IMG/VR virus record: IMGVR_UViG_3300032397_000005
Coordinates: 41,444-105,443 of that record
Reading direction: 5' to 3' (one strand)
From: a virus
Length of the DNA stretch: 64,000 nt
Part shown: positions 2,726-60,803 of the stretch, one piece after another
Layout of the letters: each line of letters begins with the position of its first letter
Position numbering within the stretch: the first letter of the stretch is position 1
Translations under genes and position numbers: made by a program
The notes under the pieces: generated by a model
What the model saw: only the letters and a program-made list of their open reading frames with translations
The model's database searches: none
What the model was told of the DNA's origin: nothing

Positions 2726-5434
2726 ATGTCCGACGCTGACGTCACCTGCGCTCAACCTGCGTCCGCATCTCGTTTCACATGTAAGTCCGGGGATCCGCGG
2801 CCGGTCCGCCACTTCTCCAGGGAGGGGGAGGACGTCTGGGACGCCGCTGGGCCGTGGACGCGTAGGACGGCGCGGATCGAGGGCGCGGGGGGAGCGGCGC
2901 TCTTCGAGCAGGAGAACGTGGAGGCGCCGGCCAGTTGGAGTCAGATGGCCGTCGATGTGGTGGCGTCGAAGTACTTCCGCGGGCGACTTGGGACCGTAGG
3001 AAGGGAGTATTCCGTCCGGCAGTTGGTGGATCGGGTGAGTAAGGAGATCTCGTACTGGGGCGGTCAGGATGAGTACTTCGAGGACGTCCCGCTCCGGGAC
3101 GTCTTCCGGGATGAGTTGACGGTCCTCCTCCTCACTCAGCGACTCTCGTTCAACTCCCCAGTCTGGTTCAACGTTGGGGTGGAGCAGACCCCCCAGTGCT
3201 CGGCCTGCTTCATCAACTCCGTCGATGACTCCATGGAGAGCATCATGGACCTGGCCAAGACGGAGGGTCTCATATTCAAGCGCGGGAGCGGGGCGGGCGT
3301 CAACCTCTCCGCGTTGCGCGGGAAGAACGAGCCGCTTAGTGGGGGCGGGACGGCCTCCGGTCCGGTTTCGTTCATGCGGGGATACGACGCCTTTGCGGGC
3401 GTCATCAAGAGCGGAGGTCGCACGCGGCGCGCGGCCAAGATCATCATCCTAAACGTGGATCACCCGGACATCCTGGACTTTATTCGCTGCAAGCCGGAGG
3501 AGGAGCGGAAGGCGCGGGTACTGGCGAGCGCCGGCTTTGGCTCCGGGTTGGACGGGGACGCGTCCGTCTGCTACCAGAACGCCAACAACGCCGTGCGCGT
3601 GACGAATGCGTTCATGATGGCGGCGGAGCGGGGGGATGCTTGGAAACTGTACGCGCGCAAGACCGGGGAGGTCATGGAGACCGTGAATGCGGCGGATCTC
3701 TGGGACGAGATCGTCTCGGCCGCGCACGACTGCGGGGACCCGGGACTGCAGTTCGACGACGCCGCGAACGCGTGGAACACCTGCTTGGTGGACGGTAGGA
3801 TCAACTCATCCAACCCTTGCTCTGAGTTCACGTTCCTCGACAACTCCGCCTGCAACCTGGCCTCCCTGAACCTCCGAAGGTTCCAACTAGAGGACGGTTC
3901 CCTGGACGTGGCGGCGTTCTCCGCGGCCGTGGAGGTCTCCATCTTGGCGCAGGACGTCCTGGTCGATCACTCCAGTTACCCCACGTCGAAGATTGCGGAG
4001 AACTCCAAGCGGTTCAGAGCGCTGGGTCTCGGGTACACCAACCTGGGGGCGTTCCTGATGGCGGCCGGTCTTCCGTACGACTCGAACGTTGGTCGAGCCT
4101 ACGCGGCCTCGTTGACGGCGCTCATGACGGGCGTGGCGTACCGCAGCAGCGCGCGGATTGCGCGGAGGAAGGGGTCATTCGAGGCGTGGCCGCGCAACTC
4201 TCGCGCCATGACGCAAGTTCTTCAGAAGCACCAAAACGCAATCCGAGGCATCGACGCCGGTCTAGCGCCGATGGCGGTCCTCGAGGCGGCGCGGGACGTC
4301 TGGGACGAGGCTCTGGCGGAGGGGGTGGCCGGGTGGAGGAACGCGCAGGTGACCCTCCTCGCCCCAACCGGGACGACTTCGTTCATGATGGACGCCGACA
4401 CCACGGGGGTTGAGCCGGACTTCTCCCTCATCAAGCGGAAGCGGCTCTCCGGTGGCGGGGAACTCCTCATGGAGAACGGCTCCATTGCGCGGGCGCTGGA
4501 GCGGCTCCTGTACGACGGGGTGGAGATCGAGCTGACGCTGAAGCACCTCCGGGATAAGGGGACGCTGCAGGGTTCCGAGGTCCTACCGGAGGACCTCGCG
4601 GTCTTCGACTGCGCGGCGGAGGACGCGGCGGGTCGGAAGATCTCCTGGACGGGACACGTCCTGATGGTGGCGGCGGTCCAGCCGTTCCTCTCCGGGGCGG
4701 TCTCGAAGACGGTCAACCTACCGGCGGACGCCACCCCGGAGGACGTTGGTCAGGTCTACCGCCTGGCGTGGCGGGAGGGTCTCAAGGCGGTCAGTGTCTA
4801 CCGGGACGGGTGTAAGCGGGTTCAACCACTGGAGCGCAAGAGCGGGAACGGGGGGAACGGGAAGTCCGTGGGGTGGGTCGCGTCGGTCCAGGTGGAGCGG
4901 GCGGCCGGGAGGGAGCGGATGCCGAGGGAGCGGGACTCCCGGACGCACAAGTTCGACATTTCCGGGCACGAGGGGTACGTCACCGCGGGGATGTACCCGG
5001 ATAGGCGGCTCGGGGAGCTCTTCGTGGTGATGGCCAAGGAGGGGAGTACGGTTCGGGGCCTCCTGGACGCCTGGGCAACCTCCGTGTCCATTGCCCTCCA
5101 GTACGGCGTGCCGTGGGACGCCTTGGCGGACAAGTTCCGGCGGATGAGGTTCGAGCCAAGCGGGTTCTCGGACAACCCGGATATTGGGGCCACGACCTCC
5201 CCACTCGACTACATCACGAGATGGGTGGATCTGCGCTTCCCGGAGGGGAGGTTCGCGGATGTTCCACCGAGGGAGGAGGCGCCGGCGGCGGTCCGGGATG
5301 TCATCCAGCGCGTGGCGGAGGTGCTCCGAGTTCACGACTCCGGACCTCCCTGCGTGTCGTGCGGCGCCATCACGGAGCCCAGCGGCGCTTGCCACCGTTG
5401 CCCAACATGTGGAACCAGCACTGGTTGCGGATAG
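2726..5434 (+). CDS. nrdJ: adenosylcobalamin-dependent (class II) ribonucleoside-diphosphate reductase
   Basis: Converts ribonucleotides to deoxyribonucleotides using B12-generated radical chemistry, supplying dNTPs for phage replication. The 902-residue product shows the family hallmarks: NSPVWFNVG followed by CSACF (Cys158/161, including the redox cysteine), the GSGAG-NLS loop, the active-site NPCSE at 363-367 with the thiyl cysteine and essential Glu, and the APTGTTSFMMDADTTGVEP loop near residue 550. The C terminus carries CVSC...CHRCPTCG cysteine pairs typical of the thioredoxin-like/zinc tail. No small subunit gene accompanies it, as expected for class II. SD AAGGAG precedes ATG. Confidence 0.95.
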   Translation: MSDADVTCAQPASASRFTCKSGDPRPVRHFSREGEDVWDAAGPWTRRTARIEGAGGAALFEQENVEAPASWSQMAVDVVASKYFRGRLGTVGREYSVRQLVDRVSKEISYWGGQDEYFEDVPLRDVFRDELTVLLLTQRLSFNSPVWFNVGVEQTPQCSACFINSVDDSMESIMDLAKTEGLIFKRGSGAGVNLSALRGKNEPLSGGGTASGPVSFMRGYDAFAGVIKSGGRTRRAAKIIILNVDHPDILDFIRCKPEEERKARVLASAGFGSGLDGDASVCYQNANNAVRVTNAFMMAAERGDAWKLYARKTGEVMETVNAADLWDEIVSAAHDCGDPGLQFDDAANAWNTCLVDGRINSSNPCSEFTFLDNSACNLASLNLRRFQLEDGSLDVAAFSAAVEVSILAQDVLVDHSSYPTSKIAENSKRFRALGLGYTNLGAFLMAAGLPYDSNVGRAYAASLTALMTGVAYRSSARIARRKGSFEAWPRNSRAMTQVLQKHQNAIRGIDAGLAPMAVLEAARDVWDEALAEGVAGWRNAQVTLLAPTGTTSFMMDADTTGVEPDFSLIKRKRLSGGGELLMENGSIARALERLLYDGVEIELTLKHLRDKGTLQGSEVLPEDLAVFDCAAEDAAGRKISWTGHVLMVAAVQPFLSGAVSKTVNLPADATPEDVGQVYRLAWREGLKAVSVYRDGCKRVQPLERKSGNGGNGKSVGWVASVQVERAAGRERMPRERDSRTHKFDISGHEGYVTAGMYPDRRLGELFVVMAKEGSTVRGLLDAWATSVSIALQYGVPWDALADKFRRMRFEPSGFSDNPDIGATTSPLDYITRWVDLRFPEGRFADVPPREEAPAAVRDVIQRVAEVLRVHDSGPPCVSCGAITEPSGACHRCPTCGTSTGCG

Positions 5435-25069: not shown

Positions 25070-27154
25070 ATGAGCGAGCGTCAAGCGGCGGAGGTCCAGA
25101 TCCAGCGCGACTTCGCGGACAACCCTACCGTCGCGGAGATCAAGAAGCGCAACGTGAACGTGTTGCGGGCCACCGTCCTTGGCTTGGCGCGGATCCGGGA
25201 GGAGAAGCTTTCCCGGCAGAGGGAGGCGGATAGACCCGCGTCCGGGACCGGGACCTCCGCTGGGGAGAGCAAGGCGCTACTGAACGACCCCATCTCGGTC
25301 CTCATGCAGAGCGGTCAGGTGGTTGCTCCACCGTTCGACCTCCTCACCCTGGCGGTGATGCCGGAGAACAGTACGGAACTCGGCCCTTGCATCGACGCGA
25401 TGGCCGTGAACGTGGAGGGGTTTGGCTGGCGGCTCGAGTCCCGCGTTCCGGTCAACGAGCGGACGCCGGTGGAGGTTCTCCAGATTCTGGAGGAGGAGCA
25501 GGTCATAGCGGAGAACTTCTTCAGCAACTGCTGCCCGGACGGGGAGTCCCTCGAGGACCTCCGGGATAAGCTTCGGCGGGACCTGGAGGCCACCGGGAAC
25601 TGCTACGTGGAGTTCGTGGAGGTTCCGGGGACGGGACGCCTGGACGGGTTGAATCACCTCCCCTCGTGGACGATGCGTATTGGGCGCGTGGAGCAGGAGT
25701 CCACGGAGTACGTGGACCTGGGCGTGGAGAAGATGGTCCGCTTCGTGGAGCTCCCTCCGGAGCCGAAGGAGTCGACGGAAGTACCTGAACTCGCTGACGA
25801 GGAATTCTCTGCGGATGAGGATGGGATCTCCGGACCTCCGCTGAGGCACGTTCAGGAGGCGGAGGGGGAGCCGATCCGAATCCAGAAGCAGTCGACCTTC
25901 GAGACGCAGGTCACCTACGAGCTGCGGGAGCAGGTGCGCTTCAAGCGGTTTCGTCGGTACGTCCAGCTGCGGGAACGTCAGGTCATCTGGTTCAAGGAAC
26001 TGGGGGATCCGCGCCTCATATCCAACCGAGACGGGCACGTGGTGACGCGTGAGGAGCTCCTGAGGGAGGAGAACGGCGGGGAGCAGCTTCAGCGGTTCAC
26101 GCTCCTCGGGGACCGCGTGACGGTTGCGCTCGGGATTCGGGGTTTTCCGGTCCGGGACGCGGCCAACCCGGTTCGTCATAAGCGACTCTACTCCACGCGC
26201 TCGCCCTACGGGCTCCCGCGGTACACCGGGCACCTGTTCTCCATCTTCGGTTCCCGGGCGGCGGAGGAGATCAACTTCACGACGTTCAAGAACAACAACG
26301 TTCCCTCTATGGTCATCACGGTGTCCAACGGGAAGATGGACGACGAGTCCGTCGAGCGGATCGAGGAGTTCGTGGAGGCCACGATTGCGGGGGATGACAA
26401 TTACAGCAAGTTCCTACTCTTGGAGGCGGAGCCGGTTCTGGAGGGGATGCGGGACCCGGGGTCGATGCGCATCGACGTCAAGCCGCTTACGTCTGAGCAG
26501 CACACGGACGCGATGTTCGTCAACTACCAGAACTCGAACGATGAGCGCGTTCGGCGGGCCTGGCGATTCCCACCCATCTTCGTCGGGAAGTCGGATGACT
26601 TCACGGGCAAGACGATCGAGGCCAGCCGGAAGCTCGCGGACGAGCAGGTCTTCGGGCCGGAGCGGGGGAAGGTGGACCGCTTCTTGACCCGGGACGTCCT
26701 GCTCCGAATCGGGGTGGTCTGGAGCGTGTTCCGGTCCAACTCCCCGAACGTGACGGAGAACGCGGACCTGGTCAAGCTCCTGGCTCAGGGCGAGAAGACG
26801 GGCGGGCTCACACCGCGCATTGCGCGGAGACTCATCGGGCGGATCGTGAACGAGGATCTGGGGGAGATTGACACGGATCTCCTCCCTCCGGATCAGCCGT
26901 TCTCCCTGACGTTGGCGGCCATCATGAAGACAAACTCGGCCACCGAGGCTCCCGGGGGCGGGGAACCGACGAGTCAGGGGCGGGCGGGGTTACAGGTTGC
27001 CGGTCCACCGAAGGAGTCCATCGCGGAGAGTGCGGACGACGGTGAGGTGTTCTCGTCCCTGGCGGGGATGATCCGCGCGGAGGCGGCCATGCGCTTTGGG
27101 GGGTTTGTCCCGCCCGCGCTGAAGGACGAGCCGGAGGAAGTGGAGCCGGACTGA
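25070..27154 (+). CDS. phage portal protein
   Basis: Dodecameric portal at the DNA-entry vertex. The order after terminase and typical motifs support it: VAPPFDLLTLAVMPENSTEL, TGNCYVEFVEVPGTGRLDGL (portal wing), YGLPRYTGHLFSIFGSRAAE, FTTFKNNNVPSMVITVSNGK, and RRAWRFPPIFVGKSDDFTGK near the C terminus, the usual PBSX/HK97-type portal layout. At 694 aa it is longer than the ~450-550 aa norm, with an acidic insertion around residues 215-290 and a low-complexity C-terminal tail. Confidence 0.92.
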   Translation: MSERQAAEVQIQRDFADNPTVAEIKKRNVNVLRATVLGLARIREEKLSRQREADRPASGTGTSAGESKALLNDPISVLMQSGQVVAPPFDLLTLAVMPENSTELGPCIDAMAVNVEGFGWRLESRVPVNERTPVEVLQILEEEQVIAENFFSNCCPDGESLEDLRDKLRRDLEATGNCYVEFVEVPGTGRLDGLNHLPSWTMRIGRVEQESTEYVDLGVEKMVRFVELPPEPKESTEVPELADEEFSADEDGISGPPLRHVQEAEGEPIRIQKQSTFETQVTYELREQVRFKRFRRYVQLRERQVIWFKELGDPRLISNRDGHVVTREELLREENGGEQLQRFTLLGDRVTVALGIRGFPVRDAANPVRHKRLYSTRSPYGLPRYTGHLFSIFGSRAAEEINFTTFKNNNVPSMVITVSNGKMDDESVERIEEFVEATIAGDDNYSKFLLLEAEPVLEGMRDPGSMRIDVKPLTSEQHTDAMFVNYQNSNDERVRRAWRFPPIFVGKSDDFTGKTIEASRKLADEQVFGPERGKVDRFLTRDVLLRIGVVWSVFRSNSPNVTENADLVKLLAQGEKTGGLTPRIARRLIGRIVNEDLGEIDTDLLPPDQPFSLTLAAIMKTNSATEAPGGGEPTSQGRAGLQVAGPPKESIAESADDGEVFSSLAGMIRAEAAMRFGGFVPPALKDEPEEVEPD

Positions 27155-27155
27155 C

Positions 27156-29333
27156 TTGGACCTCGACAGCAAGACAGCCACCGGAATCACGCCGGAGTTC
27201 CTGGCGGAGCTCTCCCACGGGGAGTTGATCTTCCTGGCGGACGTCGTGTCTGAGCGGACGCTGGAGCCGGTCCTCCGGGAGGACGAGCGGGATCGCGCCC
27301 TGGAGACGGAGCTGGCGGAGGGGTTGGACGCGGACTGGACGGCGGACTACGAGCCGGCGTCGGAGGCGGCGCTTGCGGACCTCCCGGAGGCGGACGTGTC
27401 CGTTGAGGAGGTGGACGCGGCGCTCGGGAGGATTGGGGCCAGTCTAGACAAGCGGGACACGTCCGGAGCGCGGAAGTTGTTGCTTGGGGCGTTGACCGCG
27501 GTGGCCCTCCTGGCGCGCGGGCGGACCCGGGACCGGGTCCGCGTAAAGGACCCCAAGGCGGCGGCGCAGGTCTCCACTTCCCTCTCCCAGGCGGACAAGG
27601 GGGCGATTGAGGCAACTACCAAGGCGCAGCTCTGGTGGATCGGGGACCTCTGGGGGCAGCACCTCTCCCGGGTGATCCTGGAGACGGTTCGCCGGGAGGC
27701 GTTGGTCCGCGGGCTGGGGCGCGCGGACGTGGGGAAGGTCATGGACGGCGTCATCAACGCAAAGGTCCCGGCGGCCTTTGTTCCGGATACCTGGAGGGGG
27801 AGCAAGGAGGGGTACTTCCGGATGCTCTCCGGGACGGTCAGGTGCCGTGAGAGTACGTCCAGCGCCCTGTACTCCCTCCGGGAAGCGGGGTTCTCCCGGT
27901 ACAGGTTCGAGGCGGTCATGGATGAACGCACCTCGGACGTCTGCTTTCGCGCGGGGACGCGGGTGTTCTGCGCGGACGGGGAGCGGGACATCTCGGAGGT
28001 CCGGGTTGGAGACACCGTTATTTCCGGGCTTGGAGCGCGGAGGAGGGTGCTCAGGACCTGGTTGAATGAAGCGGAGGACTGGAGGGTCATAACGCTGACG
28101 TCCGGTCGTACGGTTACGGTAACCTCCAATCATCGGTTCCTCACGGTCCGCGGGTGGCGCCGCGCGGGGGACCTGGAGATTGGAGAGGACCTTGCCGCGC
28201 AGGAAGCACGTCCTGAAGAAACTTGCCGGGGTCTGCGAGCACTGCGGGAAGACGTTCCCCTACACCCCGTCGAAGACCAAGCCGGTCCGGAAGTTCTGCG
28301 GGCTTGCATGCTACCACGCCCGCAAGGGCGCGGAGAAGCGGGTCGAGCGAAAGTGCCTTCAGTGCGGGGAGACCTTCCACCCGTACCGGACTCACGCGGA
28401 GCAAGGGCGGGGACTGACCTGCAGCACCGTATGCCGCCGGAGGTTCTTCCGTCGGGGGCTCCCGCCGGAGGCGCTCGACCGGATCTGCGAGACGTGCGGG
28501 AAGACGTTCAGGGTCCGGCCGCTGGAGCACCTTACCGGGAAGGCGCGTCGACACTGCTCCAACGAGTGCCGGAAGCGGCGCGGATTGATCGTCTGCGAGA
28601 CCTGCGGGGTAGAGTTCGAGGCAAAGCTGACGAGCGGAGGGATTCCAAGGCGCTTCTGCTCCCGTCACTGCTACCACTCCCGGAGGACCGCAACGCGGCC
28701 GGAGGTGTTCGTTCGAGCGGTCCTCGAGGAGGCGGGTCTGGAGTTCCGCGCGGAGGAGCCGCTGGGGAGTCTTTTCCTAGACTTCTTTGTTCCGGCGCTC
28801 TCCTTGGGGATCGAGGTGGACGGGACGTACTGGCACTCTCGGGAGAACTCACGGGAGCGGGATTATGCCAAGGAGGAGGCGGTGCGGCGGGTCGGGATTC
28901 GACTCCTGCGGATCTCGGAGGAGAACACCCAGGCGCCGGACGCGGAGAAGCGGGTCCTGCGGAGTATCTTGCGCGCGCTGTTGGAACCGTCCGCGTTGTC
29001 TCAAATGCTCCGCTCCGCGTCGTAGACTTCTCCTACAACCTCTCAGTGGACGGTGACCCGACCTATGTAGTCGAGGGGGTGATTGTCCATAACTGCCGGG
29101 AACTTCACGACCGCGTGTTCGTCGTTAACGACGGCATCGACCTGATGGAGCGGGTGAACGTGGCGGACAACCCGGACGCGGTGAAGGACCTGGCCGGGTG
29201 GCGAACCGCGGACGACGTTCGCGGGATCATCGGGAAGCAAGATGCGGAGGGGGCCAGGAAGTCCCTGACGGAGTCCGGGATCATCTGGCCTCCACTCCAC
29301 GCCAACTGCCGGAGCGTCATCACGCCGGACTGA
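27156..29333 (+). CDS. MuF-like minor head protein interrupted by an intein
   Basis: The exteins together (about 341 aa) form a Mu gpF/SPP1 gp7-type head protein: FEAVMDERTSDV joined to CRELHDRVFVVNDGIDLMER and ending WPPLHANCRSVITPD. These match the MuF core D-E-R-T-x-x-x-C-R...L-H and P-x-H-x-N-C-R-S. The intein (27942-29093) sits exactly before the conserved Cys of DVC. Starts at TTG 27156. The N-terminal ~200 residues are acidic and helical. Without splicing the head domain would be disrupted, so splicing is presumably essential for virion assembly. Confidence 0.88.
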   Translation: MDLDSKTATGITPEFLAELSHGELIFLADVVSERTLEPVLREDERDRALETELAEGLDADWTADYEPASEAALADLPEADVSVEEVDAALGRIGASLDKRDTSGARKLLLGALTAVALLARGRTRDRVRVKDPKAAAQVSTSLSQADKGAIEATTKAQLWWIGDLWGQHLSRVILETVRREALVRGLGRADVGKVMDGVINAKVPAAFVPDTWRGSKEGYFRMLSGTVRCRESTSSALYSLREAGFSRYRFEAVMDERTSDVCFRAGTRVFCADGERDISEVRVGDTVISGLGARRRVLRTWLNEAEDWRVITLTSGRTVTVTSNHRFLTVRGWRRAGDLEIGEDLAAQEARPEETCRGLRALREDVPLHPVEDQAGPEVLRACMLPRPQGRGEAGRAKVPSVRGDLPPVPDSRGARAGTDLQHRMPPEVLPSGAPAGGARPDLRDVREDVQGPAAGAPYREGASTLLQRVPEAARIDRLRDLRGRVRGKADERRDSKALLLPSLLPLPEDRNAAGGVRSSGPRGGGSGVPRGGAAGESFPRLLCSGALLGDRGGRDVLALSGELTGAGLCQGGGGAAGRDSTPADLGGEHPGAGRGEAGPAEYLARAVGTVRVVSNAPLRVVDFSYNLSVDGDPTYVVEGVIVHNCRELHDRVFVVNDGIDLMERVNVADNPDAVKDLAGWRTADDVRGIIGKQDAEGARKSLTESGIIWPPLHANCRSVITPD
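27942..29093 (+). mobile_element. intein in the MuF-like head protein
   Basis: Begins with Cys in CFRAGTRVFCADGERDISEV (block A), has GRTVTVTSNHRFLT as block B, WRRAGDLEIGEDLA after it, and ends LRVVDFSYNLSVDG...VVEGVIVHN (blocks F/G: terminal His-Asn) directly before extein Cys. The splicing residues Cys1, block B His, penultimate His and terminal Asn, plus the +1 Cys, are all present. Length is 384 codons. The central ~260 codons in this frame are low-complexity Arg/Gly/Pro; the real information there is in the +1 frame (28180-29025). Confidence 0.9.
28180..29025 (+). CDS. zinc-finger Vsr-like (EDxHD) homing endonuclease, out of frame within the intein
   Basis: 281-aa frame, +1 relative to the intein. 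Four successive zinc fingers of the form C-x2-C-G-x-x-F...C-x3-4-C occupy residues ~18-165 (CEHCGKTF, CLQCGETF, CETCGKTF, CETCGVEF). They are followed by a PD-(D/E)xK/Vsr-like nuclease: LGSLFLDFFVPALSLGIEVD, GTYWHS, ERDYAKEEAVRRVGIRLLRI. The E-x-D...H...D set fits the EDxHD homing endonucleases. The only starts are TTG 28180 or TTG 28192, with weak SDs. It would spread the intein by cutting inteinless MuF genes. Confidence 0.85.
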   Translation: MERTLPRRKHVLKKLAGVCEHCGKTFPYTPSKTKPVRKFCGLACYHARKGAEKRVERKCLQCGETFHPYRTHAEQGRGLTCSTVCRRRFFRRGLPPEALDRICETCGKTFRVRPLEHLTGKARRHCSNECRKRRGLIVCETCGVEFEAKLTSGGIPRRFCSRHCYHSRRTATRPEVFVRAVLEEAGLEFRAEEPLGSLFLDFFVPALSLGIEVDGTYWHSRENSRERDYAKEEAVRRVGIRLLRISEENTQAPDAEKRVLRSILRALLEPSALSQMLRSAS

Positions 29334-29343
29334 GGAGGAGTAC

Positions 29344-30990
29344 GTGAACAAGCAGGTGACGGTACAGACCCTGATCTTGGCCAAGGAGACCTTCCCAACG
29401 GCGGCGGATGCCACAAAGTGGGTCACGGATCACGACTTTAAGGTCAAAGACGGTGCTCCGGACGAGACGGAGAGCTCCTGGCGCTACCGTCAGCGGGAGC
29501 CGGGTGAGTTCCAGGAGGGGACCTTTCGGACCATAGACATGACGGATGGCGTCCAGGCCGTGGTCGGACGCCTCAAGGAGGAGAAGATGAGAAGGAACGA
29601 GGAGTCGGTGGCGCGCGGGAACGCCCTCCTGCTTCCGCTGAACCTGTCCGTCGACAACGTCCACGACCTTGAGTTCGCGGTGGATAAGTTCCGGCAGGCA
29701 TCTGCGGCCAGGGCCTGGGCGGAGAATCACGGGATGGTTCCGCGGGAGGTCAAGGTCCGGGCGGACGCGATCTTCGCGGAGATCCTCCCGGCGGATGCAT
29801 TTGTCTTTGCGACGCTTCGCCGGGAGAAGGTCACCAGGGACGTCTTTGCGGTGGTCGGGGATCGCGTTGCTGAGATCAATGCTCTCCACGTGGTTCCGGA
29901 CGCCGACGCTTCGATGGAGGAGAAGCGGGATGTCCAGGAGGTGGATGATCCCTCCCCGGTGAGGAAGCGAGCGGAGCTCCACGTCCTGAAGGCTAAGGAT
30001 GCGGCGGATCCAATGGCGGAGGTCCGGATGTTTGGGATCGTCATGAAGCCAGACGTCCCGGACATCGAGGGGGACGTTACGTCTGTAGAGGAGATCATAC
30101 AGGCGAACGACCTGTTCATGCGGGAGTTTGGGACCGTTGGCTTCATGCATAAGAAGGACGTGACCGAGAAGGTCTCCATCATCCAGAACGTGATTGCTCC
30201 GATCGACTTCGACTTCCCGATCGACGACGGGGGGAGCAAGTCGATTGGGAAGGGAACGTGGTATCAGGAGCTCTACACGGCAGATGCGGAGCTGGTCAAG
30301 CGTATCCGGGAGAGGAAGTTAAACGGGCTCTCCATCGGGGGCTTTGCGCGGCGGGTGTCGGTGGACGGGGAGGGGGAGGTTCAGGAGGCGGTGGGGAAGC
30401 GGTCTCCGGAGCACCTGGGGAAGGCAGAGGGGGACACCCCAAAATCACGATTTGTCAACCTTCGCGTCGAGGAGGTGTCCATCGTGGACGCAGCCGCCAA
30501 CGAGGAGGAGTTCTTCATCATCAAACGGAGGAAAGACATGAGTACGAATCAGGAAACGCAGATGGCGGTGGCGCTGGTGGAACAGGTGGGGGCGGTCATC
30601 CTACCGGTGACGCCCACGTCACCGGTTGTTCCGGTGGCGGCGGCCGCACCCGCGGCGGTCACTCCGCCGACTCCGGCGGTCACTCCGCCGACTCCGGCGG
30701 TCACTCCGCCGACTCCAGCTGTTCCGGTGTCGGAGCCGGTGGACGTGGCAAAGGCGGTCCAGTCGGCCGTGAGCTCGGCCGTGGAGAAGGGTATCGCCCC
30801 GATCGTGGAGCGGCTCGACGCCGTCGAGAAGCGGCTCAGTGAGCAGGCAACGATCCGGGCGGCGGCCAAGGGGGAGTCCGTTCCGGAGACCACGGCGCGT
30901 CCGGCGGAAGCACCGGCGCAGAAGTCGAAGTGGGCGGGGACGGCGGTTCACAACGTCGTATCTCGCGCGCAGCAGAGGAAACCCGCCTAG
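29344..30990 (+). CDS. XkdF-type prohead protease fused to a scaffold-like C-terminal region
   Basis: 548 aa. The N-terminal module (residues 5-80: TFPTAADATKWVTDHDFKVK, then SSWRYRQREPGEF) is the conserved lead-in of phage XkdF proteins. The protease proper spans ~235-395: GIVMKPDVPDIEGDV, REFGTVGFMHKK (His), LNGLSIGGFARRV (Ser), and VEEVSIVDAAANEEEF. The C-terminal 150 residues are Pro/Thr/Val repeats and a coiled coil (VERLDAVEKRLSEQ), like a scaffolding domain cleaved off during maturation. GTG start behind GAGGAGGAG. Directly precedes the capsid gene. Confidence 0.88.
   Translation: MNKQVTVQTLILAKETFPTAADATKWVTDHDFKVKDGAPDETESSWRYRQREPGEFQEGTFRTIDMTDGVQAVVGRLKEEKMRRNEESVARGNALLLPLNLSVDNVHDLEFAVDKFRQASAARAWAENHGMVPREVKVRADAIFAEILPADAFVFATLRREKVTRDVFAVVGDRVAEINALHVVPDADASMEEKRDVQEVDDPSPVRKRAELHVLKAKDAADPMAEVRMFGIVMKPDVPDIEGDVTSVEEIIQANDLFMREFGTVGFMHKKDVTEKVSIIQNVIAPIDFDFPIDDGGSKSIGKGTWYQELYTADAELVKRIRERKLNGLSIGGFARRVSVDGEGEVQEAVGKRSPEHLGKAEGDTPKSRFVNLRVEEVSIVDAAANEEEFFIIKRRKDMSTNQETQMAVALVEQVGAVILPVTPTSPVVPVAAAAPAAVTPPTPAVTPPTPAVTPPTPAVPVSEPVDVAKAVQSAVSSAVEKGIAPIVERLDAVEKRLSEQATIRAAAKGESVPETTARPAEAPAQKSKWAGTAVHNVVSRAQQRKPA
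30655..30720 (+). repeat. 21-bp tandem repeat encoding VTPPTPA
   Basis: Three consecutive 21-bp units (GCGGTCACTCCGCCGACTCC core), the last with a single change. Because 21 is a multiple of 3 the frame is kept, so copy number can vary the linker length between the protease and scaffold segments. Confidence 0.9.
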
Positions 30991-46262: not shown

Positions 46263-49200
46263 ATGTCGGTTCGTCGATTTGGCCCAGTACTGGGAGCCGG
46301 AGTTCAGGTGGAGGAGAAGGAGGGGGATCAGCAGATCAACCCGGCACCCCTTGGCGTGAGCGTCATGATTGGGGACTTCGAGCGCGGCGTCCCCGGTGAG
46401 CCGGCATTCCTCTCCGGCGTCCTTGACCTGAAGAGAAGGAACGGGGGGAGGATCCCGCTGTCCGACGCACCCCAGGCGGCGCTCGACTTCTACAAGTTGG
46501 GGCGGGGAGCCGGGGAGCTGATCACCTATCGGGTGACCGGAGGGGACGAGCGGCGCGCGGAGTTGACCCTCCACACGCGCCAGGGGACAACCGCGTCCGG
46601 GGCAAGTTCCCCCAGCAAGGCGTACGTCCTGGGCTCCGTGGTTGGACCGTGGCCGCTGGCGCACAACGGGACCCTTGTTGGTGCCGTGGATCACACCGCG
46701 GAGGACATCGCGACGATCGCCGCAATCTCCGCCACCCTCCAGAACGGGGCGGATGAGAACTTTGCCCTGTCGAACAACATGACCCTGACCGTCAAGATCG
46801 ACCGCGGTCCGGTTCAGACCATCCTGTTCCTCACCGGGGAGTTCGTGAGCATTGCGGCGGCAACGGCGGAGGAGGTGGCGGCGGTCATTGCCAATAAGAT
46901 CTCCGGCGCGAGCGTGAGCGTGACCTCCGGTGGGAAGCGCGTCACGATCACCTCGGACACTCAGGGGACGGACTCCTACATCGAGGTGACCGGGGGGACG
47001 TCGAACACGGCGCTCCTGTTCCCCACCGCGGAGACGGCCACAACCGCCTCCAACGTGGCGGATGTGACGCAGGTCACCTCCGCGGAGCTCAAGACGATCC
47101 TGGAGGCGGCCTGGAACAACTCCGCGGGCATCACCGTGACGGCTCCCGGGGGGTACCTCCGGATCGAAACCAACCTGGCCGGTGCGGGCGGGTACATGCA
47201 GGTCATCGCCACCTCCACGCTCGACACAATCCTCGGGCTCGACAATTCTGAGCACCAGGGGTCCGCCGGGGCGGCGGCGGCGCTTTCCTCCGGGCGGAAG
47301 GTCCTGGGGAAGCTGTACGCCAAGAACGGCGGGAAGTGGGGCGGGCAGCGGAAAACGCACGTCGATACGCTCACCGGTTCCGGGGACATCACCGCGACCA
47401 CGCTCGACACCGGGGACACGCTGGTGGAGAACGAGTGGGCGGGTGGGACCCTGGAGCTCAAGAAGGTCACGACCAAGACCTACCGGATCACCGGGAACAC
47501 CGTGGCCGGGGTGGTCTCCGTGGAGGGGGACCAGAACCTCCTCGCGGACTGGACCGCGGGCGCGGGGACGCCGGCACTTCGGTACGTCCTGACGCGTGAG
47601 AACGTGGATCACCTTACGAAGGACAAGCACCTGGCGGTCGTCCTGGGGAACGGGAACGAGAACCCCACCACGGAGTTCTCCCTGAAGATCTACGTGGACG
47701 GAGCCAGCGTCGGGAAGGGTTATAACAACCTCTCAACGGACCCGACCAAGGCCAACTACTGGGTCAAAGTCATCAATGACGACCCGTCCAACCGGGAGGT
47801 GACCGCCACGGACCTCTACGTCGGGGATAAGACGGTGGCGGCGGTCCGGGCGGCAAACTTCTACGGTCTGAGCAAGGTCCTGACGTCGCTGACCCTCACG
47901 CTCCCGGATCCGGACGTGACGGTGACGTCCCCGGGTCTTGCCAACCCAACCGTCGTCTTCGTGAAGGGCACCGCCGTGCGCTCCCAGATCCTGACCGGGA
48001 CCGTGCAGGGCGGCGGGGCGCACATCATCTGGACAACCAGCATCGGGACGCTCTCCGTCCTCCAGACCACGTTCACCGGGGTGGCAACGAACCTGGGTCC
48101 GGAGATCGGGACCGTGACCCTGACCAACGGGACGACCGTCCTATCTGCCGGGGACGTGGTGACGCTGGAGATCCTGGCACTTGTCACGAATGAGGCCAAG
48201 GGTGGGACGCTCTGGCCGAGCGTGGTGGCTAAGCCGAAGCTGGGCTTCTACGTCGACTCAAACACGCGGACAACGGTCTCCGTGCGGACCGGGCTGGACC
48301 TGACGGACGGGGCGACTATCGTGGCCGGGACTCCCTTCATGCTGGCGTTTCAGGAGGAGTTCGGGCTGGGGTGCAACGGGGGACCGCTGGCGGACGCGGA
48401 CTTCCTCCCGGCGCTCGACGCCAACCTGTCCACGCTCCGGAGGATCTTCGGCCGGAACAAGGGCATGGTCAAGCTGGCCGTCCCGGGGGTGGTCTCCACG
48501 GTGGTTCAGCGGGCGGCCATCGAGTTTGCGGCCGCGATGAACTGGGGCTTTAAGGTTCAGATCCCGGACACCATCCTCACGGAGGCGGACGCGATCGACT
48601 ACGTCAACGGGACGATCGGGCGCTCGGACTACGCCTCGACTCACTTCCCTTCCTACGGGTCCGTTCTCGACCCGGACGCCACCCCGGGTGCGGGGGACGT
48701 CCCGCTGAAGCAGCAGACCTTGGTGGGGATGATTCTCGGGCGAGAGGCGCTGGTGGCGCGGCAGTACGACGGCTACCACAAGGCGCCGGCTGGGATCGAC
48801 GTCACGCTCCCGGACGTCATGGAGCTCCCGACCGGGAACCCGGAGGAGCAGATCGCGCTGAACGAGGAGATGACGAATCCGCAGGGTTTGAACCTCGTTA
48901 AGTTCCGCCAGGGGGTCTGCATCCTCTGGGGGGATCGGACCCTCTCCCCGACCTCGGAGTGGAAGTGGTTTCACCAGCGCTGCCAGATGAGCCACTACGA
49001 GAACCTCATTCGGGAGAATTTCGACTGGATCGTCTTCGCCATCAACAACCCGACGGCGTGGCAGCGGGTGGCGACGACGCTCCGGGCCTTCTTCCTCCCG
49101 GAGTGGACGAAGGGGGCGCTTCGGGGCAAGACGTTCACGGAGGCGTTCAAGCTGAAGCTGGACGAGGAGAACAACACGGATCTGACCCTCTCCGCCGGGG

Positions 49201-49295
49201 ACCTGAACGCGGAGCTCACCCTGAAGCTCGCGGACACGGTGGAGCGGTTCAAGATTGTTCTCGGGAAAGCCGGCATCTTCGACGCGGTGGAGTAG
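46263..49295 (+). CDS. tail sheath protein, unusually long (1010 aa)
   Basis: Contractile tail sheath. The N-terminal ~115 residues (GVSVMIGDFERGVPGEPAFL, LSDAPQAALDFYKLGRGAGE) and the C-terminal ~250 residues (WGDRTLSPTSEWKWFHQRCQ, ARENFDWIVFAINNPTAWQR-like region, TLRAFFLPEWTKGALRGKTF, DLNAELTLKLADTVERFKIV) are typical of T4 gp18/Mu-type sheaths. The middle holds two copies of an inserted domain with pattern A-A-x-I-N/A-x...S-V-T-S-G-G-K-R-V-T-I-T-S. Typical sheaths are ~400-700 aa, so the inserts explain the size. SD AGGAGG. Confidence 0.93.
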   Translation: MSVRRFGPVLGAGVQVEEKEGDQQINPAPLGVSVMIGDFERGVPGEPAFLSGVLDLKRRNGGRIPLSDAPQAALDFYKLGRGAGELITYRVTGGDERRAELTLHTRQGTTASGASSPSKAYVLGSVVGPWPLAHNGTLVGAVDHTAEDIATIAAISATLQNGADENFALSNNMTLTVKIDRGPVQTILFLTGEFVSIAAATAEEVAAVIANKISGASVSVTSGGKRVTITSDTQGTDSYIEVTGGTSNTALLFPTAETATTASNVADVTQVTSAELKTILEAAWNNSAGITVTAPGGYLRIETNLAGAGGYMQVIATSTLDTILGLDNSEHQGSAGAAAALSSGRKVLGKLYAKNGGKWGGQRKTHVDTLTGSGDITATTLDTGDTLVENEWAGGTLELKKVTTKTYRITGNTVAGVVSVEGDQNLLADWTAGAGTPALRYVLTRENVDHLTKDKHLAVVLGNGNENPTTEFSLKIYVDGASVGKGYNNLSTDPTKANYWVKVINDDPSNREVTATDLYVGDKTVAAVRAANFYGLSKVLTSLTLTLPDPDVTVTSPGLANPTVVFVKGTAVRSQILTGTVQGGGAHIIWTTSIGTLSVLQTTFTGVATNLGPEIGTVTLTNGTTVLSAGDVVTLEILALVTNEAKGGTLWPSVVAKPKLGFYVDSNTRTTVSVRTGLDLTDGATIVAGTPFMLAFQEEFGLGCNGGPLADADFLPALDANLSTLRRIFGRNKGMVKLAVPGVVSTVVQRAAIEFAAAMNWGFKVQIPDTILTEADAIDYVNGTIGRSDYASTHFPSYGSVLDPDATPGAGDVPLKQQTLVGMILGREALVARQYDGYHKAPAGIDVTLPDVMELPTGNPEEQIALNEEMTNPQGLNLVKFRQGVCILWGDRTLSPTSEWKWFHQRCQMSHYENLIRENFDWIVFAINNPTAWQRVATTLRAFFLPEWTKGALRGKTFTEAFKLKLDEENNTDLTLSAGDLNAELTLKLADTVERFKIVLGKAGIFDAVE

Positions 49296-58364: not shown

Positions 58365-60803
58365 ATGGGAAGCACGAAGGTTGTCGTCCCAGACTACGAG
58401 TTCTCAGGCTTCTACTACGCGGACTTTCTCCGACGGATCCGCATGTACAACCGGGTGAACGCCCCGGAGATCACGTCCGAGGTGGCGGAGGAACCGTTCA
58501 TCCAGGGGGAGCGCGCCTTCTCCCTGGTTGGGCACTACAATAACGTACTCCTGGACCTAGCGGCGCAGGAGAACCTCCTACCAACGGCGCGGCTTGCGGA
58601 CAGCGTCCGGATGCTCCTGCAGCTCATCGACTACCAGATGAGAGACTACTCCCCTGCGGTGGCGGAGCTCCTCCTCGAGCTGGCGCAGGTCCCAACGTCA
58701 TCCGTCCTCCTCCTGGAGGCCATCTCCGCGTTCGAGACGCACCGGACGGAGGAGTCAGATCCCATCTCCTTCGAGGTCCTGGACGAGATGTACGTCGGAC
58801 CGGCAAACGTCATCGACGCCGCGTTCGCCCTGATCCTGGATCGATCCGGAACGGACGGGAAGACGATCTTCGGGGACCCAACCGTGTTCGAGTCCGTCTC
58901 CATGGCGGTTGCCGCGGGGGATCTGAACAAGGAGGTCGAGGTCGGGAACTCCATCCTGGGGAACGTGGGGACCTTCGTCATCTCGGAGGTTGTCCAGACC
59001 GGTGGCGTCTCCCGCGTCCGCCTGGCCGGAACGCTTGGTGGTCCGGACCCGCTGTTCATCCCGGAGGAGGACCTCACGTGGAAGATCCGGTCGTTCTCCG
59101 CCAACGGGGCCTCGTCCGTGAATACCGCGGGCGCACCGTACCTCACGCCGTGGGCGACGGTTCACGTTGGGGACAAGCTGTACGTTGGGAGCAGGTGGGT
59201 GATGTGGGACGTCCTCAGCGTCGCGCTCCAGACGGCGGCCACTGGGACCGTTGGCATCTGGGAGTATTACGACGCGGACAACCTGGATGAGACGCCGGAC
59301 TCCGTGTACAACGACGGGTCCTCTCTCATCCTGAACCTCCTGACCCTCCTGGGTCCGTTGGACCGGAGTGGCGCGCTGGTTCGCGTGACGTACCTCCCAA
59401 CGATGACCTCGGAGCTCCTGGCCTCCTCGTTTGGGTCCGGGAGCAACACGGTCGAGACCTCCGCTTTCCTCGGTCAGACCGGGACGCCGTCCACGGATCC
59501 GGCGGACTACGCGGTTGGGACGGACTGGAACCCGCTCCCGAACCTGGAGGACGGGACCGCGGAGTTCACGGTGGACGGGGACGTGGAGTTCAGCCTCCCG
59601 CAGACGCTGCGGGAGAACTGGCAGAAGGTGACCGTGGCCGGGGTGGAGGGGTTCTTCCTCCGGTTCCGCGTCATCACCGCGGGGACGTCCCCGATCCTGG
59701 ACCGCGTGCGGATAGACGGCGGGAAGCAATACGCCCTTGCGCTCGCGGTTCAGGGGGAGACGGTGCGGACGGAGCCGCTCCAGAGCAGCAGCGCGCAGGC
59801 AAACCAGTGGTTCGACCTGGCCTCAAGCCCCGCCCTCCGGGATACCGTCCGATGCTTTATTGACGACGGCGGGGAGGTGGAGTGGACCAACCTAACCGCG
59901 GTTGGTCTGAAGCTCCTCAGCGTGGGACCAAAGGACACCTGCTTCACCGTGGATCAGGATGCCCTGGGGGTCCTGACCGTCAAGTTCGGGGACGGAACGC
60001 ACGGGAAGATACCGGCGTTGGGGACGGACAACGTTCGTTTCGTCTACCGCGTGAACGCCACGGTGGACGGGAACGTGGGGGCCAACTCCGTCGTTGTCAA
60101 CTCCGGCGGGGCGGCGGGGGCCTCCAGCGTGACCAACCCGCGGCCGGCGAGCGGGTGGCAGGAGGCGGACGGCGCCTCGGAGGAGTCCCTGGCGACGGTC
60201 AAGGAGCTTGGGCCGGCCTCCCTCCGCGCCATGGGGAAGGCGACGGCGCCGGAGGACTACGAGACCCTGGCGCTCCGGTTTGTCAACTCCCGGGGATCCC
60301 GCCCGGTGGTCCGCGCCAAGGCGGTTGAGGAGGGCTACGGACCGAAGACCATCAAGTTGGTCGTGGTGGGGACGAACGGCGTGGCCATCTCCGCCACGGA
60401 CAAGGCGGAGTTGGAGGAGATGTTCAACGGGGACCCGTTGACCGGATCCGGGGGAGTTGGTCAGGCAAACACCAAGACCACGGTGGACAACTTCAGTCCG
60501 CGGCTCATTGGACCAACGCTGGTCGTCGAGGCGAACGCGGCGCTGACCGTCAAGCTGGTCAAGACGCGCCTGACGACGTTCCTCAACCCAACGTCCAAGG
60601 AGTCCGACGGGCGGTGGGTGTGGCGCTTCGGTGGGCGGGTTCCGCTCTCACGGATCATCTCCGAGATCTTCCAGATCAGCCCGGGCAACGTCTTCGACGC
60701 GGACGTCTCCCTCCCGCAGTACGACCTGGAGCTGGCGGAGGACGAGCTGCCGTTCCCGGACACCGCGGCCTTCAACGTCTCGATCGTGACCCCCGTGAAG
60801 TGA
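58365..60803 (+). CDS. baseplate J-like protein, 812 aa
   Basis: Bridges wedge and hub. The Baseplate_J signature is in the C-terminal third: GKIPALGTDNVRFVYRVNAT, VDGNVGANSVVVNSG, ASEESLATVKELGPASLRAM, KATAPEDYETLALRFVNSRG, VRAKAVEEGYGPKTIKLVVV. The N-terminal half is enlarged with beta domains compared with the usual ~350-450 aa, possibly taking over other baseplate roles. No gpI-like gene follows; the fibre gene begins 11 bases later. Confidence 0.88.
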   Translation: MGSTKVVVPDYEFSGFYYADFLRRIRMYNRVNAPEITSEVAEEPFIQGERAFSLVGHYNNVLLDLAAQENLLPTARLADSVRMLLQLIDYQMRDYSPAVAELLLELAQVPTSSVLLLEAISAFETHRTEESDPISFEVLDEMYVGPANVIDAAFALILDRSGTDGKTIFGDPTVFESVSMAVAAGDLNKEVEVGNSILGNVGTFVISEVVQTGGVSRVRLAGTLGGPDPLFIPEEDLTWKIRSFSANGASSVNTAGAPYLTPWATVHVGDKLYVGSRWVMWDVLSVALQTAATGTVGIWEYYDADNLDETPDSVYNDGSSLILNLLTLLGPLDRSGALVRVTYLPTMTSELLASSFGSGSNTVETSAFLGQTGTPSTDPADYAVGTDWNPLPNLEDGTAEFTVDGDVEFSLPQTLRENWQKVTVAGVEGFFLRFRVITAGTSPILDRVRIDGGKQYALALAVQGETVRTEPLQSSSAQANQWFDLASSPALRDTVRCFIDDGGEVEWTNLTAVGLKLLSVGPKDTCFTVDQDALGVLTVKFGDGTHGKIPALGTDNVRFVYRVNATVDGNVGANSVVVNSGGAAGASSVTNPRPASGWQEADGASEESLATVKELGPASLRAMGKATAPEDYETLALRFVNSRGSRPVVRAKAVEEGYGPKTIKLVVVGTNGVAISATDKAELEEMFNGDPLTGSGGVGQANTKTTVDNFSPRLIGPTLVVEANAALTVKLVKTRLTTFLNPTSKESDGRWVWRFGGRVPLSRIISEIFQISPGNVFDADVSLPQYDLELAEDELPFPDTAAFNVSIVTPVK

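Follow-up and report, generated by a model that had tools for sequence, protein, structure and literature searches.

A homing endonuclease gene nested out of frame in a contiguous, probably splicing-competent phage intein

The question raised by this locus was whether one stretch of phage DNA can encode an intein in one reading frame and a homing endonuclease in another, and, if so, how the two proteins are made and how the arrangement arose. The locus lies in a 64,000-nucleotide stretch of viral DNA (the window; 65% GC) taken from a virus record of 105,443 bases. An earlier note on this DNA had placed an intein in frame 0 of a head gene and a nuclease in frame +1, and the open reading frames, the profile matches and the empty-site homologues bear out this assignment and its coordinates. 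We think it very probable that the intein is contiguous, and probably competent for splicing, and that an endonuclease gene is nested within it in another frame, with one DNA encoding two separate proteins.

The head-gene intein and the overlapping nuclease gene

The features of the locus are as follows.

27156..29333, plus strand: host ORF in frame 0, 725 aa, an SPP1 gp7/Mu gpF-type minor head protein with the intein; 341 aa after predicted splicing
27942..29093, plus strand: intein in frame 0, 384 aa, from Cys1 to His-Asn, followed by Cys; from profiles, empty-site homologues and an AF2 model
27942..28199, plus strand: Hint N-terminal splicing module in frame 0 (block A, block B TSNH, end motif AGDLEIGEDLAA); dN/dS 0.12
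28180..29025, plus strand: out-of-frame homing endonuclease gene in frame +1, 281 aa; from profile matches, dN/dS 0.24
28182..28194, plus strand: candidate internal ribosome-binding site GGAGAGG with TTG (28192-28194), in the intein codons for G-E-D-L-A; conserved in the relative L003
28212..28940, plus strand: the overlap as read in frame 0, an open, unconstrained linker predicted to be disordered (intein residues 91-333)
28234..28671, plus strand: zinc-finger-like Cys4 repeats (nuclease residues 19-164); invariant Cys pairs in alignments
28681..28929, plus strand: EDxHD/Vsr-like catalytic domain (nuclease residues 168-250); from profiles, alignment and structure matches
28988..29093, plus strand: Hint C-terminal module in frame 0 (blocks F and G, VHN), its first part overlapped by the C-terminus of the nuclease

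The frame-0 head ORF lies between a portal gene (25070-27154) upstream and a gene for an XkdF-like protease (29344-30990) downstream, and it matched the profiles phrog_2841 (minor head protein, 2e-7) and phrog_13868 (9e-10). A DNA search of the window region against deposited phages gave no matches. The C-terminal part of the protease gene has a repeated AVTPPTP motif (about 30700-30760). Elsewhere in the window there are genes for tail sheath-like (46263-49295) and baseplate wedge-like (58365-60803) proteins, indicating a contractile-tailed phage, and for the large subunit of a phage-encoded ribonucleotide reductase (2726-5434; phrog_84, 3e-111).

The intein begins with the Cys1 codon at 27942 and ends with the His-Asn codons at 29088-29093, followed by the +1 Cys codon at 29094. 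The splicing residues in the window are C1, TSNH in block B, and VHN followed by the +1 C; in an alignment of six head-protein inteins C1, T61, H64, H383 and N384 were invariant. The Pfam Intein_splicing profile matched with E = 2e-7, slightly below its curated cut-off, and the TIGR intein profiles matched at the C-terminus (8e-5) and the N-terminus (4e-4). In the AF2 model of the frame-0 intein, residues 1-90 and about 340-384 had a pLDDT above 90, and residues 91-333, the part overlapped by the nuclease, had one below 50. The profile matches and the confident modelling of both halves thus point to a Hint fold. The intein interrupts a conserved site in the host protein (DERTxxx, then CxxL), and there are intein-less alleles: the site is uninterrupted in the homologues L037 (341 aa) and L038 (337 aa). 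There were no Rfam matches at E up to 1 within 26500-30000, and for that reason we rejected a group I or group II intron.

The nuclease ORF starts at TTG 28180, with an alternative TTG at 28192, and ends with TAG at 29023-29025. It matched profiles of the MTES_1575/DUF559/Vsr families and phrog_559 (3.5e-18). The top PDB profile match was I-Bth0305I (3r3p, 3.5e-13), which was also the top Foldseek match of the nuclease model (mean pLDDT 78; 5e-5, TM 0.76 by target); Vsr (1cw0/1vsr) gave the next nucleases in the structure and profile ranking. E175, E192, D201, E212, D214 and H219 of the catalytic domain were invariant in the alignment. On the strength of this fold and these acidic and His residues we assign it to the EDxHD/Vsr-type homing endonucleases.

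The splicing blocks are in frame 0, as the earlier note had it, but the nuclease is not confined to the central part of the intein. Its start lies within GEDLA and its stop within VVD of block F, both true intein motifs. The intein is not of the classical endonuclease-containing kind, as the nuclease is in phase +1 and not in the same frame, nor is it a split intein or a fractured gene, as frame 0 has no stop between the intein halves.

Error, chance and selection in the two frames

The out-of-frame nuclease in the intein is real and does not result from indel errors. A second IMG/VR contig (L002) matched the window over 5567 nt at 99.84% identity with no gaps, and in L003, which has about 78% nucleotide identity to the window, a 729-aa frame-0 ORF and a 277-aa nuclease stand in the same relation. 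Frame 0 has no stops through the nuclease in the window or in L003. On this point, and on the uncoupling of splicing and nuclease into different frames, the earlier note was right. That sequencing or assembly indels fake a frame change in an ordinary in-frame intein has general plausibility alone in its favor and can be practically dismissed, given the gapless match to L002, the repeat of the layout in L003 at 78%, and its recurrence in 67 clusters (see below) from many assemblies and isolates. Because the same layout is found in dozens of other phages, we regard it as a widespread design of mobile inteins and not as a sequencing error.

Across the overlap, codon-position GC shifts to the pattern of the nuclease frame. 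In a comparison of the window with L003 (269 shared codons), dN/dS was 0.24 in the nuclease frame and 1.38 in the intein frame; in Hint N before the nuclease start it was 0.12. The third frame had five stops in each of the two sequences, and the other two frames were open in both. The nuclease frame is under selection, and the intein frame of the same DNA is without amino-acid constraint, yet open. When the nuclease protein was held fixed and synonymous codons were redrawn from the codon usage of this phage (20000 simulations), frame 0 was open in 0.35% of simulations for the window and 0.385% for L003. Permuting each gene's own synonymous codons left frame 0 open in 0.37% (window) and 0.06% (L003).

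We obtained a similar picture from the terminase (TerL) HNH family of Synechococcus phage S-EIV1, which has 37 loci, 31 of them with the full 338-aa intein (L148, L150, L153, L154, L155 and L156, which are cut, interrupted or deleted, were left out of the analysis). For 16 representatives below 97% identity (sharing on average 66% of nucleotides), median dN/dS was 0.14 in the nuclease frame, where dS is near saturation (mean 2.38), 1.31 in the intein frame and 1.33 in the third frame. The intein frame had no stops in any of the 16, and the third frame had 12-21. Synonymous permutation predicted 11.6-18.4 stops, and for each representative 0 of 5000 permutations were open. Since the intein frame is free of stops but has a dN/dS like that of the third frame, the host frame appears to be kept open and nothing more. 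These inteins lack the penultimate His (VLN, then C), which makes splicing less certain for them than for the intein in the window.

It is very improbable that the intein is dead, or that the frame-0 ORF is open by chance at high GC, and that the nuclease merely interrupts the head gene. Alternate frames are often open at a GC content like that of the window (65%), and a few phase +2 clusters have near-even odds of an open frame. However, the catalytic residues for splicing are retained, Hint N has a dN/dS of 0.12, and the same layout occurs at GC 0.32-0.50, where many stops are expected and none was observed.

Synonymous divergence was uneven along the locus. Between the window and L003, dS was 0.38-0.41 in the intein and 0.81-0.97 in the extein, a difference of about one half that fits transfer of the intein after the two phages had split; double-coding constraint could account for part of it. 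Within the nuclease, dS was 1.3 over the first 60 codons and 0.18 over the last 121, a pattern suggestive of patchy recombination.

Recurrence in other phages and expression of the nuclease

Loci from viral contigs and deposited phages were classified by Hint profiles of our own making together with a test of phase. The set of 211 entries leaves aside the record of the window itself (L001), the intein-less L036-L038, duplicate copies of contigs (L002, L011, L014, L015, L017, L020, L021 and L022), and ten of 16 inspected deposited regions (L041-L044, L046, L168 and L170-L173). The entries comprised 110 nested out-of-frame nucleases, two in-frame, four split, six with one Hint half and 89 without Hint. 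Clustering at 95% nucleotide identity in the nuclease region gave 142 clusters (67 nested, 1 in-frame, 4 split, 1 half and 69 without Hint), in which the ratio of nested to in-frame is not a population estimate, the queries having been out-of-frame nucleases. Because the nested class requires both Hint halves in one ORF, the absence of stops is partly a matter of definition, and a fair comparison sets the 67 nested clusters against the 4 split ones. Nested out-of-frame nucleases are widespread, and the rarity that had been supposed from the single locus does not hold.

The nested class includes EDxHD and HNH nucleases, both shifted frames, and head-protein and terminase sites. Phase was +2 in 42 of the nested clusters and +1 in 25, and GC ranged from 0.32 to 0.66. 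An HNH family at the terminase site ...DH, then C...DAxRY had 63 loci (55 nested, none in-frame, 3 split, 3 without Hint and 2 cut); phase was +2 in 54 of the 55 nested loci and +1 in L219. Over all families, permutation predicted 386 stops in the intein frame of 66 of the 67 representatives (one with fewer than 60 nuclease codons was dropped) and none was observed, which in part follows from the definition of the class.

L004, L005/L006 and L034/L035, all recovered with the window nuclease, also have a long host ORF across a nuclease in another frame. In L034 the intein is in a terminase and the nuclease is of the HNH type. Several deposited phages have the same layout in their terminases: S-EIV1, Gordonia phage Clown and Rhodobacteraceae phage LS06-2018-MD07. 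Acinetobacter phage Highwayman and Tetrasphaera phage TJE1 have it as well; S-EIV1, Clown and TJE1 are cultured phages. In S-EIV1, TJE1, Clown and Highwayman the terminase annotation spans the nested nuclease, and no nuclease is annotated. A search of bacterial genome contigs with profile A2 gave only two weak loci (L164 and L165), both without Hint, and a search with the nuclease type of Clown (L040) recovered only the same phage.

How the nuclease is expressed is suggested by the position of its start. In the head-protein and S-EIV1 families the nuclease starts in the motif that closes the Hint N module, a position homologous between the two. The codons for G-x-x-[LIV]-[VAG] hold a TTG in the +1 frame in 15 of the 16 TerL representatives, and the Shine-Dalgarno sequence is the Gly codon of that motif together with its neighbor. 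The starts in L004, L005, L034 and L040 are different or ambiguous. Our first start-site energies were biased, starts having been picked partly for their Shine-Dalgarno sequence, and we repeated the test without choosing starts. A start with a Shine-Dalgarno sequence of -4 kcal/mol or better was present near the end of Hint N in the nuclease frame in 60% of the 67 clusters, compared with 19% in the third frame (Fisher p 3e-6), 25% in the intein frame and 10% of 422 windows in the nuclease interior. There was no such start in the region tested in 27 of the 67 clusters, including Clown (L040/L232). Because of this enrichment at the end of Hint N, internal initiation is the likely route of expression, and the nuclease is likely translated independently from an internal TTG, one of the two routes that the earlier note had suggested.

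Alternatively, +1 ribosomal frameshifting at a CTT-G site could give a fusion of head protein, Hint N and nuclease that is perhaps then cleaved. We consider this improbable. In the +1 families there is a Shine-Dalgarno-like stretch upstream of CTT G, which would resemble the layout of prfB. However, the slip codon varies (CTT, ATT or GTT) and the TTG is retained in 15 of the 16 TerL representatives, there is no downstream stop in the host frame that would stall the ribosome, and families with phase +2 start at ATG or GTG with a Shine-Dalgarno sequence in a similar place. A +1 slip does not explain these last families.

Proposed mechanism, origin and related systems

From these results we infer splicing, internal initiation, cleavage with homing, and an origin by gene capture. 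Ribosomes on the head gene would cross the nuclease DNA in frame 0 and make an unstructured linker, which the flanking Hint halves, once folded, would excise by splicing. Other ribosomes would initiate at the internal TTG with its Shine-Dalgarno sequence, at the end of Hint N, and make a free zinc-finger/EDxHD nuclease. This nuclease would cleave intein-less head genes, into which the intein would then be copied. The arrangement most likely arose by insertion of a free-standing nuclease gene into a mini-intein, in a reading frame that kept the host frame free of stops; afterwards, the nuclease frame would have been under functional selection and the host frame only under selection against stops.

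The nested head-protein relatives with the window type of nuclease (L003, L004/L049, L005/L006/L051/L052, L048, L050 and L053) all have phase +1, at 28-38% identity or more, and phase is likewise +1 in all 31 full-length TerL loci. A phase shared across such deep divergence in both the head-protein and the TerL families indicates that the arrangement is old and inherited, and a recent origin through frameshifts is not supported. The earlier note had proposed instead that an in-frame intein endonuclease was shifted by two compensating indels. An in-frame EDxHD-type intein does exist in a head-like protein (L102/L103), and L219, with phase +1 among +2 relatives, indicates that nucleases of one family need not all have the same phase. 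Against the proposal are the single phase common to whole families over deep divergence, the start sites that the nucleases have of their own, and free-standing relatives of the nuclease that adjoin terminase genes (L168, L170 and L172). We consider two compensating frameshifts unlikely; gene capture fits better, and the frameshifts are not needed. The sole in-frame cluster, L102/L103 (GC 0.29), is too distant to give polarity.

Other states of the element were also found. There are four split clusters (L058, L169, L189 and L230). In the terminase of Vibrio phage 1.238.B (L169), IntN and IntC are in the same frame, and the 14 stops that separate them lie within the HNH gene. In L058 (2693-4763) an EDxHD-type nuclease is fused in frame to the IntN of a head-protein intein, and IntC is in a separate ORF. 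The nuclease is decayed, with an intact intein and terminase frame, in L148 (a remnant of 141 codons) and in L155/L156 (a deletion); these three are a decayed stage of the same element. Together, these states suggest a series from a free gene to a nested gene to split or fused forms, with the direction inferred. We lean toward the broader view that a nested, independently translated nuclease is a standard and widespread form of tailed-phage intein, in which the Hint-N end AGDLxxGxxLV provides the ribosome-binding site and start, and that it may be an entry stage leading to a split intein (by a stop in the host frame) or to a textbook large intein (by fusion of the frames).

Some deposited regions have features of separate interest. 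The terminase of L169 (MG592604, 3-3371) apparently has two inteins, the first inside the N-terminal ORF and the second split by the other-frame HNH gene, and its C-terminal piece is annotated merely as a hedgehog/hint protein. Mycobacterium phages Malithi (L041, 2501-3265) and KilKor (L042, 2501-3199) have an EDxHD-type relative on the strand opposite all annotated genes, overlaid by a hypothetical-protein annotation in Malithi and with nothing annotated in KilKor. Brevundimonas phage Poludnitsa (L173, 2501-2941) has an unannotated HNH relative between its terminase and portal genes.

If separate but overlapping nuclease genes are common in inteins, annotation pipelines overlook them, and surveys that label such inteins endonuclease-free are wrong. 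The entry of an endonuclease without breaking the intein would also be simply explained, as only the host frame must stay open. The locus would then be a natural example of dual coding with one frame merely kept open, and would provide a testable link among contiguous, out-of-frame and split inteins.

A 2025 preprint by Gosselin et al. reportedly deals with actinobacteriophage inteins of "non-canonical architecture". The papers that our literature searches turned up do not describe an out-of-frame endonuclease inside an intein, although that preprint may cover part of this, for example Clown. The available portions of PMC6293099, PMC5050341, PMC10448857, PMC10885494 and PMC12768974 describe no other-frame intein endonuclease.

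The ShiLan paper, in the sections available, reports an out-of-frame HNH gene in a phage methylase with the methylase frame open, finds no intein or intron at the insertion, expects the insert to remain in the protein, discusses the translation of the HNH gene as an open question, and cites Gosselin et al. 2025 for frequent overlapping frames in actinophages (2025, PMC11855218). A methylase insertion of the ShiLan kind also appears in the available part of a genome announcement (PMC12613952). As in ShiLan, the nuclease in the window is inserted out of frame and the host frame is open. Unlike in ShiLan, it is flanked by Hint halves; the arrangement also occurs at several sites, its nucleases have two different folds, and there is a conserved start with a Shine-Dalgarno sequence.

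The nuclease shares its EDxHD catalytic domain with I-Bth0305I (PDB 3r3p), a group I intron protein, but has a preceding zinc-finger array, and its carrier is an intein in another frame and not an intron. Large inteins are usually described as one polypeptide with a splicing domain and an endonuclease domain. Like these textbook inteins (here L102/L103), the element occupies a conserved host site and has a homing endonuclease flanked by Hint halves; unlike in them, the endonuclease is a separate protein from another frame and not a domain of the intein polypeptide. The "fractured genes" of Dassa (2009) are said to be split inteins with a free-standing endonuclease gene. Our element resembles these in having a nuclease gene between the intein halves, with predicted expression of its own, as for the HNH relative in Vibrio phage 1.238.B. 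Unlike in fractured genes, the host frame is uninterrupted, so splicing is predicted to occur in cis, from one polypeptide.
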